Source of the DNA: an uncultured Flavobacteriales bacterium
GTDB taxonomy: Bacteria; Bacteroidota; Bacteroidia; Flavobacteriales; Crocinitomicaceae
NCBI GenBank assembly: GCA_946480815.1
Contig: CAMLLB010000045.1
Location: forward strand, 1 to 36,886
Length of the DNA stretch: 36,886 bases
Reading direction: 5' to 3'
Below the pieces are notes generated by a model. It saw only the letters and a list, made by a program, of their open reading frames with translations. It was not told the origin of the DNA and did no database searches. The position numbers and the translations under genes are program-made. This document shows positions 13,551 through 16,462 of this stretch, one piece after another (the first letter of the stretch is position 1; each line of letters begins with the position of its first letter).

Positions 13551-13579
13551 AAAAGTCCAACGCGGTGCGCTGGACTTTA
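13551..13579 (-). terminator. Rho-independent terminator of the Cys-rich/MerT-like operon
   Basis: On the minus strand AAAGTCCA and TGGACTTT (13571-13578 and 13552-13559) form an 8-bp stem that continues with CGC/GCG after one mismatch, and it is followed by TTTCTTTTTG. It lies 85 bp beyond the stop of the MerT-like gene. Confidence 0.78.
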
Positions 13580-13663: not shown

Positions 13664-14161
13664 CTATTCACAGCCACTTTCAGAACATTCACCTGTACTT
13701 GAACAAGACGGCGAAGCTGTGGAACATTCTGTTTGTTCCGATTTTGCCTGTTCGTTTGTTGCAGCACTGTATTTCGCGTATTCGAAATAACTTAAAAAGC
13801 TTAAACTGATTACCAGTCCGATCCAAAAGATGGCTTTAGACAGTTTCACTTTACGTTTTTCTTTGTCCGTTGGAGCACACTCGCATGAATTTCCTGTATT
13901 GCAGCTAGTAAACTTTGGGATTACATAGAGCGAATAGTAAGAAATGGTAAATGAAACCGCACTTATTGCAATAAATAATGGTTCAAGCACGCTCATAACC
14001 GGAGAATTAGCGATCGTGGCCGAAGACACTCCGAATAAGGATGCTACCGGACTTGCGCAAACTCCTACACAAGCTCCGCTTTTGCAACATGCCAGTAAAA
14101 TCGGGGCAGATGAAGTCACACCACCGGTAATGGTTGTCCAAATGGTTCTTTTCGCCTTCAT
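13664..14161 (-). CDS. MerT-like cysteine-rich membrane protein
   Basis: A 165-residue inner-membrane protein with hydrophobic segments at about residues 14-50, 56-82 and 108-128. Vicinal Cys25-Cys26 in ILLACCKSGACVGVC resembles the metal-binding cysteine pair in the first helix of the mercury transporter MerT. Further cysteines are in the loop CNTGNSCECAP (87, 93, 95) and a hydrophilic tail with Cys146, 153, 159 and 164, 11 in total. There is no MerP-type GMTCxxC domain and no mercuric reductase nearby, so mercury specificity is not established. It begins 3 bp after the secreted Cys-rich gene and shares its promoter. The likely role is transport of a thiophilic metal across the inner membrane; the direction is unknown. 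Confidence 0.72.
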   Translation of the reverse strand: MKAKRTIWTTITGGVTSSAPILLACCKSGACVGVCASPVASLFGVSSATIANSPVMSVLEPLFIAISAVSFTISYYSLYVIPKFTSCNTGNSCECAPTDKEKRKVKLSKAIFWIGLVISLSFLSYFEYAKYSAATNEQAKSEQTECSTASPSCSSTGECSESGCE

Positions 14162-14164
14162 TTA

Positions 14165-14395
14165 TTAGTGTGTTGTAGTCTGAGGGGATTTACATTCTGC
14201 CTTACATTTTTTATTTTTTGAGTCGCATGAAGCCCCGGTACATTTTTCACACGCTTTGTCTTTGCATTTTCCTTTGGAACATTCCTTTTTTGTGCACTTC
14301 TTTTCGCAATTCGGAGGACATTGATTTGGTTCCTGAGCAATGGTTGAAAGAGCCACAAACAGCACAGCTGCTGATGATAAAATTATTTTTTTCAT
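14165..14395 (-). CDS. Secreted metallothionein-like cysteine/lysine-rich small protein
   Basis: A 76-residue protein starting at the ATG at 14395: MKKIILSSAAVLFVALSTIA is a signal peptide ending at AQ. A longer frame from 14440 would lie across the promoter and is unlikely. The mature part, about 55 residues, holds 10 cysteines spaced 3-7 apart (QC, NC, KKC, KEC, KC, AC, KC, SC, KKC, EC) among many lysines and few hydrophobic residues, so it cannot form a normal globular core. Such composition is that of a metallothionein-like metal chelator, but with a signal peptide it would act in the periplasm or outside. It is the first gene of an operon with the MerT-like protein and is divergent from a two-component system. 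No homologous named family comes to mind. Confidence 0.78.
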   Translation of the reverse strand: MKKIILSSAAVLFVALSTIAQEPNQCPPNCEKKCTKKECSKGKCKDKACEKCTGASCDSKNKKCKAECKSPQTTTH

Positions 14396-14415
14396 GTGTA
14401 CGATATTAGTTGCAC

Positions 14416-14423: not shown

Positions 14424-14445
14424 TCAAGTACCTTCTGCATACGGT

Positions 14446-14482
14446 GTTAGTCACTCGTTATTGTCGTGTTAATGACTTGTTA
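14446..14482. promoter_or_regulatory. Predicted OmpR-family operator: four GTTA repeats at 11-bp steps
   Basis: GTTA occurs at 14446, 14457, 14468 and 14479, each exactly 11 bp after the last; the preceding base is T, C, T, T. The 15-mers starting at 14446 and 14468 agree at 12 of 15 positions. Direct repeats with an 11-bp period are the known binding geometry of OmpR/PhoB-type regulators (head-to-tail dimers). The array lies between the two divergent -7 elements and next to an OmpR-type regulator gene. Confidence 0.75.
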
Positions 14483-14509: not shown

Positions 14510-14517
14510 TACTTTTG
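14510..14517 (+). promoter_or_regulatory. -7 element for the histidine kinase/response regulator operon
   Basis: TACTTTTG is an exact TAnnTTTG, only 5 nt before the kinase ATG at 14523, so the transcript is probably leaderless or nearly so. No -33 TTG is at the usual distance; the GTTA array ends 27 bp upstream. Confidence 0.55.
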
Positions 14518-14522
14518 ACTTT

Positions 14523-15773
14523 ATGAAACAGCATACCAGGACATTCCTTCTTCCAACATTGGCCCTTCTTGCGCTATTGGTTATACAGGTTGTATGGATA
14601 TTTCAACTGGTGGCCAGCAAGGAACGCATATTCAATGAAAAAGCAAATATGGCGATTTCGGGAACTGTGAATGCCTTAAACAATGATACGGAACTGTGTT
14701 CCAATATGGAAGGCGTGTGCCGGGGTGAAGTGATGCAAAATTGTCCTTTGCGTTTATCGCGGACAGACGAACGAAAGATCGATTCTGTATTGAAACAGCA
14801 ATTGGAGTATTACCAGTTAAAAACCAACTACTCCCTGATCATTTCAAAAAATGGGAAAACCATTTCCAAGACTAAACTCAGCGGCAACGCCAACACTAAA
14901 TACATTAAAAAACTTCCTGTTAACGGTGGAAGGGATGAAATTGAATTTCAGTTGTCCCTGCCCGGAAAATACAGTTATATCACCAAAGAGATCGGGTTGC
15001 TCTTTTTAGCTTCCATTGCACTGATCGTTCTCATTTCCATTTTCTACATGAAAACAATCATTTCTTACAGAAAAGAAAAATTGCTTTCCCAGCGAACTGC
15101 CGATTTTCTGAATACCATTACTCACGAATTTAATACTCCATTGACCAACATCGGACTGGCCTCCAAAATGTTGCGAAAAACCGGGACTTCCGATCCTGAG
15201 AAAGCAGAAACATACTTTGAGATCATCCGGAGTGAAAACGAAAAGTTGAAATCTCAGGTCGCTGACATCTTAAATTTGGCTGCCCTGGAAAAAGGCGAGT
15301 TCCATCTTAACAAAGAAACCATCAACATACACGATCTTTTAAATGAACGCATAAACTGTTTCCGTATACGGTTGGAAAATTTGAAGTTCGCTGTTCACCT
15401 GAATTTATCTGCTGCAAACAGTATGATCTCCGGGGACGCCGTCTTGCTTTCGAACGCTATTAATAATTTGATCGATAACGCCCTGAAGTATTCACCGGAC
15501 ACGCGTGAACTGACCATTACCACGTCTAACCAGGCGGATAAGATCTGCATTGAATTTTCAGATAAAGGCATCGGAATAGCTCCTGAGAACCATCCGTTGA
15601 TATTCACGAATTATTTTCGGGTGAACACCGGAAACGTTCATAACGTAAAGGGATTTGGGATCGGACTGGCGTACGTGCAAAAAGTCATTGAGCTGCATCA
15701 GGGCAAAATACACGTTAAAAGTGAGTTGGGCCATGGCACCACATTCATTCTTGTTTTACCGGATTTGAAATGA
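14523..15773 (+). CDS. Sensor histidine kinase with cysteine-bearing periplasmic domain
   Basis: A 416-residue membrane kinase. Transmembrane helices lie at about residues 8-30 and 157-177. The periplasmic domain between them carries Cys59, Cys66 and Cys74 (ELCSNMEGVCRGEVMQNCP), a plausible metal or thiol-redox sensor. The cytoplasmic part has the H-box FLNTITHEFNTPLTNI with His201, the N-box NNLIDNALKYSP, G1 FSDKGIGIAPE and G2 FGIGLAYV; it ends TTFILVLPDLK. His is followed by EFNTPL, the common HEF(K/N)TPL variant of Bacteroidota. The regulator gene overlaps its stop by 4 bp. Divergent placement from the Cys-rich/MerT-like operon across a tandem-repeat operator suggests that it controls that operon. 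The stimulus is inferred only. Confidence 0.92.
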   Translation: MKQHTRTFLLPTLALLALLVIQVVWIFQLVASKERIFNEKANMAISGTVNALNNDTELCSNMEGVCRGEVMQNCPLRLSRTDERKIDSVLKQQLEYYQLKTNYSLIISKNGKTISKTKLSGNANTKYIKKLPVNGGRDEIEFQLSLPGKYSYITKEIGLLFLASIALIVLISIFYMKTIISYRKEKLLSQRTADFLNTITHEFNTPLTNIGLASKMLRKTGTSDPEKAETYFEIIRSENEKLKSQVADILNLAALEKGEFHLNKETINIHDLLNERINCFRIRLENLKFAVHLNLSAANSMISGDAVLLSNAINNLIDNALKYSPDTRELTITTSNQADKICIEFSDKGIGIAPENHPLIFTNYFRVNTGNVHNVKGFGIGLAYVQKVIELHQGKIHVKSELGHGTTFILVLPDLK

Positions 15774-16462
15774 AAACACCTGCTCCTCATATTTTACTCG
15801 TTGAAGACGATCCGAACTTAGGCTTACTGCTTCTGGACCTGCTGCAAACCGAAGGATTCAATGTGAAACTCATCCGGGATGGTGAAAGCGCTTTATCTCA
15901 TTTTAAAAAAGGGACATTCTCATTGTGCCTCCTTGATATCATGTTGCCTAATATCGATGGGTATACAATTGCCAATGAGATCAGGCTCATTGATCCGGAC
16001 CTCCCGATCATTTTTATTACGGCAAAAGCGCTGAAGGAAGATAAACTAAAAGCTTACCAGATCGGGGCGGACGATTACATCGTAAAACCTTTCGACGAAG
16101 ATGAACTGATATGGAAAATCAGAGCATTTGTAAAACGTGTACCCATTCAAACAAAATCAGTTATTCATCCGATCTCCGTTGGCTGCTACATATTTGACTA
16201 CGAGAACCTCAGTTTAAATGATGGAAAGCACACACAAAGAATCACATCAAAAGAAGCAGATTTGTTGTTATTCCTGGTGAGAAACAAAAACAAACTGATG
16301 AAACGGGAAGAAATTCTGCTCGAAATATGGGGCCAAAATGATTACTTCATGGGAAGGAGTCTGGACGTGTTTATTACCAAGCTCCGAAAATACCTGAAGG
16401 CTGATCCGCATATCAAAATAGAAAACGTGTTCAACGTTGGTTTTATTTTCAAGGTTAATTAA
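15770..16462 (+). CDS. OmpR/PhoB-family response regulator
   Basis: A 230-residue regulator. The receiver domain (residues 7-122) has the acidic pocket VEDDP (Glu12, Asp13, Asp14), phospho-acceptor Asp56 in LCLLDIMLPNIDGY, Thr/Ser in IIFITAKA and Lys in DYIVKPFDEDE. The winged-helix DNA-binding domain (about 130-230) shows ITSKEADLLLFLVRN, LMKREEILLEIWG and the recognition helix SLDVFITKLRKYLKAD, ending VFNVGFIFKV. It is translationally coupled to the kinase (ATGA overlap). The four 11-bp-spaced GTTA repeats upstream of the kinase fit this family's binding mode, so it probably controls itself and the divergent Cys-rich/MerT-like genes. Confidence 0.94.
   Translation: MKTPAPHILLVEDDPNLGLLLLDLLQTEGFNVKLIRDGESALSHFKKGTFSLCLLDIMLPNIDGYTIANEIRLIDPDLPIIFITAKALKEDKLKAYQIGADDYIVKPFDEDELIWKIRAFVKRVPIQTKSVIHPISVGCYIFDYENLSLNDGKHTQRITSKEADLLLFLVRNKNKLMKREEILLEIWGQNDYFMGRSLDVFITKLRKYLKADPHIKIENVFNVGFIFKVN

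Follow-up and report, generated by a model that had tools for sequence, protein, structure and literature searches.

A directional array of four GTTA words, located between a two-component system of the OmpR type and a divergently oriented gene pair, is very probably the operator of the adjacent response regulator and is predicted to activate both the regulator's own operon and the divergent operon. The copies start at positions 14446, 14457, 14468 and 14479 on the plus strand of the analyzed stretch of 36,886 bases (the window) and thus follow each other in exact 11-bp steps (GTTAGTCACTCGTTATTGTCGTGTTAATGACTTGTTA). OmpR-family regulators bind as tandem dimers, and the four words would represent four half-sites with room for two head-to-tail dimers of the regulator encoded at 15770-16462. 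The membrane kinase would sense a signal, upon which the regulator would be phosphorylated and the array filled. Array-bound regulator could then recruit RNA polymerase to the promoter of the kinase-regulator operon, resulting in positive autoregulation, and also to the divergent promoter of the genes for a Cys-rich and a MerT-like protein. The repeats all point the same way, so that each promoter would face a different end of the array. As the array is positioned just upstream of two promoters that lack a -33 element, the arrangement fits activation, and we infer that the regulator binds there and activates rather than represses. One operator for two divergent operons, together with autoregulation, had been proposed in an earlier note on this DNA. 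This appears to be the best reading of the sequence and is supported by conservation of the array, its clustering on the regulator tree and the presence of both promoter boxes at near-constant gaps. The features are listed in Table 1.

Table 1. Array, promoter boxes and genes of the predicted divergent regulatory unit.
Feature	Position	Strand	Basis or remark
Predicted operator array of four GTTA half-sites, one every 11 bp	14446..14482	+	Repeats, conservation, matrix score
-7 box TACTTTTG of kinase-regulator operon, 27 bp from array	14510-14517	+	
-7 box TAGTTTTG of predicted divergent target operon, 22 bp from array	14423-14416	-	
Sensor histidine kinase, 416 aa	14523..15773	+	Pfam HisKA, HATPase_c
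OmpR/PhoB-type response regulator, 230 aa	15770..16462	+	Pfam Response_reg, Trans_reg_C
Small secreted Cys-rich protein, 76 aa from ATG 14395	14165..14395	-	Predicted first target gene
MerT-like membrane protein of 165 aa; CCKSGACVGVC contains a vicinal Cys pair	13664..14161	-	Predicted second target gene
Likely terminator of target operon, perfect 8-bp inverted repeat then T-rich run	13552..13578	-	By eye

Conservation of the array was analyzed in relatives that were chosen by alignment of the kinase, blind to the array. The best 80 matches were taken, the top one being 43% identical, and 79 loci were counted after exclusion of L029, in which the contig starts with the kinase. Four GTTA copies at 11-bp steps lie no more than 450 bp ahead of the kinase match in 24 of the 79 loci, and three copies do so in eight; in L042, L047 and L067 three copies are located farther upstream. 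No other 4-mer (homopolymers excluded, periods 8-15) was found four times in more than two of the 79 loci. The spacers between the GTTA words are conserved as well (mean 1.32 bits), and the consensus of the array is approximately TGTTAntgAgtAGTTATTGncTTGTTAAyGACTTGTTAA. A matrix derived from the 24 relatives, with the window excluded, assigned 51.8 bits to the window site and 0.65 to the next best site in the window. The conservation is observed from about 43% kinase identity on, i.e. among distant relatives of the window. The comparison proposed in the earlier note, conservation of the array where the genes are conserved, was carried out for the kinase and regulator genes and did not refute the proposal, as the array is kept with them in the loci counted above. 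As a set, the four genes are not conserved in the readable loci. A kinase search at E 1e-75 in 395 Flavobacteriales genomes, with up to four candidates per genome scored among the matches listed, gave no match, an empty answer that is no proof of absence.

The array was also searched for as a pattern. The plain four-copy pattern occurs in 24 of the 25 genomes of the first loci, exactly once in 19 of them, and its reversed control gave eight matches in three of the 25. Some of these genomes have a second site, located ahead of a target gene that no kinase accompanies. Because the reversed control matched and arrays of another kind (L103, L104) were caught, the plain pattern is not fully specific. 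A stricter pattern derived from the known sites was searched for in one order, where 22 of 87 genomes matched (10 already known), and in the class, where 14 of 395 did (five already known); the reversed control yielded no match in either sample. Of the 23 loci obtained with the strict pattern (one already in the set), 19 harbor a kinase match adjoining the array. The DNA of locus L144 ends shortly past the array.

Both flanks of the array carry an exact TAnnTTTG box, TACTTTTG preceding the kinase ATG at 14523 and TAGTTTTG preceding the Cys-rich gene, and by eye no TTG is present at the -33 spacing on either side of the array. The letters thus confirm what had been stated before about the two promoters. 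The -7 box is placed at -12 to -5 (PMC9723704). With this placement, transcription is predicted to start at 14522 for the kinase operon and at 14411 for the target operon; relative to these starts, the array would cover -40 to -76 upstream of the kinase operon and -35 to -71 upstream of the target operon. The mRNA of the kinase operon is predicted to be nearly leaderless, as its start lies one base before the ATG; the kinase leaders of L001 and L005 are, by eye, just a few bases longer. Since the predicted target promoter would sit within the longer open reading frame that begins at 14440, position 14395 is the likelier start of the Cys-rich gene.

The layout is nearly constant among the loci: a divergent TAnnTTTG box, 22 bp, the array, 27-29 bp and the TAnnTTTG box of the kinase. 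Based on 25 sites (24 relatives and the window), the left gap is exactly 22 bp in 22 and 21 bp in one, with two sites lacking an exact box. The right gap measures 27-29 bp in 21 sites and 37 bp in one, and three have no exact box. In an enlarged set the left gap is 22 bp in 43 and the right gap 27-29 bp in 36 of 51 sites, where 22 of the added loci had been picked by the array pattern and are not independent for the array itself. Among 11 three-copy loci the left gap is 22 bp in five and 33 bp in two, and the right gap is 27-29 bp in seven; loss of one repeat would explain the left gap of 33 bp. When both gaps were left free over 31 positions, the class-wide sample yielded 20 matches in 17 of 395 genomes, and the reversed control had none in the 395 genomes. 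Two of the 20 matches represent a single site, and array matches had already been obtained in 12 of these 17 genomes. The left gap was 22 bp in 16 and the right gap 27-29 bp in 14 of these 20 matches. The right gap exceeds the left one by roughly half a helical turn.

The array might nevertheless act in one direction only, i.e. activate the divergent target operon and be neutral or repressing at the kinase promoter, which we consider rather unlikely. Six array sites have no kinase match in the fetched DNA (L093, L094, L105, L133, L145, L150), and each of them is located before a leftward gene. In four of the six the left box is retained at 21-22 bp, and all six lack a right box at 27-29 bp, so that these sites look as a target-only operator should. 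The Salmonella PhoP/PhoQ system provides a second argument for one-way action. According to the part of the study available, a PhoP box at a given place is active in one orientation only: boxes pointing at the -10 element are active at 12 or 23 nt and reversed boxes at 27, 37 or 48 nt, whereas reversed boxes at 23 and 28-32 nt give little expression (PMC3335776). In the window, it is the promoter across the 27-29-bp gap that the array faces, and its back is turned to the one across the 22-bp gap. Compared to PhoP, the half-turn offset is alike and the orientations are exchanged. Therefore the comparison is an analogy only and, taken literally, it speaks against a straight transfer. One-way action is opposed by the kinase-side gap, which is tightly held at 27-29 bp in 21/25 sites and in 7/11 three-copy loci. 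Moreover, repression by blocking would not be expected, because the array does not reach into the kinase box, which lacks a -33 element. Activation from both ends of the array thus remains the preferred reading.

The same source, as far as available, describes further similarities to PhoP, namely tandem half-sites of an OmpR-family regulator with the word (T/G)GTTTA, and an activity that is set by distance and orientation to the -10 element, the two orientations being about half a turn apart (PMC3335776). The systems differ in the number of half-sites, two there and four here. In addition, the divergent Salmonella genes pagC and pagD are described as activated independently via their own boxes (PMC3335776), whereas a single array is positioned between the two promoters of the window.

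The link between the array and the adjacent regulator was analyzed on a regulator tree. The regulator gene overlaps the stop of the kinase gene with its start, and its product contains a receiver and a winged-helix domain (Response_reg 101.3 bits, Trans_reg_C 57.5 bits, both above the cut-off), in accordance with the OmpR-family regulator previously reported beside the array. On a tree of 79 regulators including that of the window, the presence of the array requires five changes, compared to a mean of 25.2 for shuffled labels, and none of 500 shufflings was as low; such shuffling shows clustering only, and near-copies favor clustering. Locus L029 was scored as lacking the array because its contig ends. 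Fewer than three copies accompany 47 of the 79 tree regulators, the window being included in the total, and therefore the array is confined to one part of the family. L027 (the same locus as L126) and L125 are positioned within the array-bearing regulators, yet have two exact copies. Where fewer than three copies are present, the regulators for the most part differ at two positions (Phe201 versus Tyr, Phe221 versus His), which we take to be located near the DNA in the OmpR family. Shared descent alone could explain these differences.

It is improbable, though somewhat less so than a chance origin, that another OmpR-type regulator of the cell binds the array instead of the adjacent one. GTTA arrays with 11-bp steps do occur near other systems. 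A pattern with a left gap of 21-23 bp, at least three GTTA copies and a right gap of 26-41 bp gave two matches in 386 Flavobacteriales genomes and none in the control. By eye, the array of L160 precedes, with a right gap of 27 bp, a regulator-kinase pair that is divergent from a sodium-phosphate cotransporter-like gene, and that of L161 precedes another kinase-regulator pair with a right gap of 28 bp. The regulator of L160 shares 31% identity with that of the window and the regulator of L161 35% over a 57-residue piece. Based on these two loci the layout may be a wider grammar, though a rare one in Flavobacteriales. GTTA arrays also precede TonB-dependent-receptor-like genes in L103 (six copies, other promoter spacings) and L104 (four copies), and these are probably sites of another OmpR-type regulator. 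However, four-copy arrays cluster in one part of the regulator tree, the kinase adjoins the strict consensus in 19/23 loci, and the four-copy pattern is single in 19/24 array genomes, all of which argues for the adjacent regulator as the protein that would bind. A further four-copy GTTA array, similar in layout, was observed in the class sample in L173 between dapF-like and HtrA-like genes (by eye), with a left gap of 25 bp and a right gap of 28 bp; this 3.1-kb locus contains no match to the kinase of the window.

The four GTTA words at 11-bp spacing described previously are beyond chance in simulations. No other 4-mer is repeated four times at 11-bp steps in the window, and no four-fold 4-mer repeats were found there at other periods from 6 to 30. 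Among 60 order-2 Markov simulations of the window none contained a 4-mer four times at 11 bp (homopolymers excluded); some 4-mer repeated four times at any period from 8 to 14 was present in 5% of the simulations. The expected number of four GTTA copies at 11 bp in the window is 3e-6. Phased repeats near the helical period can bend DNA, and 11-bp repeats could do so because 11 bp is close to one helical turn, but an array that is purely structural (curved DNA, repeat slippage) or accidental, with no regulator involved, is extremely improbable, as sequence, position and flanking gaps are kept across distant loci, and the repeat scan, the 0/60 simulations and the reversed strict patterns (0/87 and 0/395 genomes) rule out a chance origin.

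Direct repeats with an 11-bp step are shared with the Pho box of PhoB and the sites of Mycobacterium tuberculosis PhoP (7-bp motif plus 4-bp spacer in the available part of PMC4832192). The regulator of the window scores below the cut-offs of the PhoB models TIGR02154 (128.1 bits, cut-off 296.2) and NF053854 (150.4 bits, cut-off 270). The core word of the PhoB Pho box differs from GTTA. RprX/RprY of Bacteroides and Porphyromonas is related in that RprY (NF051850) is the best NCBIfam model for the regulator, but its 235.4 bits stay under the cut-off of 370, and the kinase-matched Bacteroides loci L070, L079 and L080 have at most one in-step GTTA ahead of the kinase. The heavy-metal systems CzcRS, SilRS, CopRS and CusRS show a similar arrangement, in which a two-component pair is transcribed away from genes whose thiol-rich products are of the metal type. 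However, the subfamily models score far below their cut-offs for the regulator (CzcR/SilR/CopR model TIGR01387, 117.3 bits, cut-off 279.2) and the kinase (heavy-metal model TIGR01386, 124.5 bits, cut-off 292.55), and no efflux pump was noticed by eye in the open reading frame lists beside the system. In open full-text literature, which covers few subscription journals, no title or beginning of an abstract among the matches listed dealt with such an array. Tandem sites of OmpR-type regulators are already known; deep conservation, two fixed gaps and exchangeable targets are added here, along with a possibly wider use of the layout and a connection of the MerT-like family to arsenic operons. If the proposed function is true, part of the phylum would follow a geometric rule with a known operator motif, so that the adjoining DNA reveals what a sensor controls, and it makes testable how one directional OmpR-family array serves two divergent promoters.

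The divergent gene itself is exchangeable and belongs to about six types, as judged by eye. Three of these are lipoproteins, namely cytochrome-like ones that contain a single CxxCH, short ones with Gly-Cys at the end and propeller-like ones; the others are secreted proteins rich in Cys, TonB-C-like proteins and a GRLPTY-type family. Five of the six sites without a kinase match precede genes of these types, the exception being L105. The names cytochrome-like and TonB-C-like were given by eye, and one scanned member of each had no Pfam match. A single common function of the divergent genes was not found; eight target-side or downstream proteins gave one Pfam match (E up to 0.01), YceI, for the gene downstream of the first target in L005. 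Lipoproteins of about 140 aa that contain a single CxxCH haem-type motif and are conserved in their C-terminal half are often located under the array (L005, L007, L017, L018, L022, L094, L133, L137, L147), the one member scanned having no Pfam match. Lipoproteins of 60-74 aa that end with Gly-Cys or Asn-Cys are likewise frequent divergent targets (L002, L014, L019, L020, L021, L026, L134, L139, L143). For the Cys-rich protein of the window, no Pfam family was found with its 91-aa open reading frame, and eight tblastn matches with 39-54% identity were obtained in five genomes (three counted twice), each adjoining an array. If the array functions as proposed, unnamed lipoprotein, cytochrome-like and Cys-rich families would be outputs of one sensor lineage.

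The MerT-like protein was rejected as a general partner of the system: it has no tblastn match in the loci searched, its homologues occur in 4/39 genomes searched (39 of the 47 array genomes), and no GTTA pair at 11 bp is present around these four genes. With MerT, the mercuric transport protein, it shares a vicinal Cys pair near the N-terminus and the character of a small membrane protein, but its score for Pfam MerT (PF02411, 29.7 bits) is below the cut-off of 32.9 and the NCBIfam cut-off is also missed. The label PF02411 is precomputed for many of its close homologues, and homologues share 84% identity in an uncultured Fluviicola and 71% in Fluviicola chungangensis, so that the window probably derives from this group. 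The motif CCKSGACVGVC is nearly invariant in the alignment of the family. No mer genes are located beside the gene in the window, where the immediate neighbors are the Cys-rich open reading frame without a Pfam match and a gene for a YCII protein, and none were seen near the homologues in L156-L159 (by eye, partly with NCBIfam). Instead, the neighbors of the homologue in L159 include ArsR, ArsM and ACR3, all of which exceed the NCBIfam cut-offs, and a gene that by eye is ArsC-like. The homologue of L158 adjoins ACR3, likewise above cut-off, and a piece that by eye resembles ArsC. For L156, the proteins encoded nearby are ArsC-like and an aquaporin, neither of which reaches its cut-off, and in L157 no arsenic gene is present near the homologue. 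The family thus adjoins arsenic genes in L158 and L159 and probably also in L156. From this context it looks like an unnamed arsenic-related membrane protein, and if so, it belongs with arsenic genes in at least two of four genomes.

The sensor region of the kinase contains Cys59, Cys66 and Cys74 and is flanked by two long N-terminal helices in a structure model, which has a mean pLDDT of 77.7 and values below 50 in the Cys loop (residues 67-75). In a fold search with this model, the 50 matches listed of 623 were kinases or kinase complexes, which does not illuminate the sensor region. On average, the sensor region contains 2.7 Cys in 40 four-copy kinases and 3.0 in nine three-copy kinases, compared to 0.66 in 47 kinases with fewer copies. 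A sensor stretch with at least three Cys is present in 11/15 loci with Cys-rich targets versus 6/32 others (Fisher p 0.0007). On the tree this association is represented by six independent pairs, one of them on well-supported branches, and is not significant; owing to these few pairs and the lack of significance it is a hint only. In view of the Cys-bearing sensors, Cys-rich targets and arsenic-gene neighbors, a thiol-binding metal or metalloid can be guessed as the signal, albeit tentatively.

An even broader reading, and a speculative one, is that Bacteroidota possess a fixed grammar for autoregulated two-component systems, consisting of a -7 box, 22 bp, a directional array of three to four GTTA copies, 28 bp and a second -7 box. 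The half-turn offset would allow one asymmetric row of dimers to activate from both ends, the layout would be common to unrelated OmpR-type systems, and it would reveal the direct targets of orphan systems. The system of the window would then sense, through its Cys residues, a metal or metalloid that binds thiols, with arsenite-like ligands favored, and drive the Cys-rich protein together with a MerT-like protein associated with arsenic. Among close relatives, the kinase and the MerT-like protein agree in the length of their longest contig, which is 33,280 (P0007/P0126), 5,464 (P0005/P0133) and 62,224 (P0006/P0174); this suggests that the kinase and MerT-like genes are located on the same contigs there.
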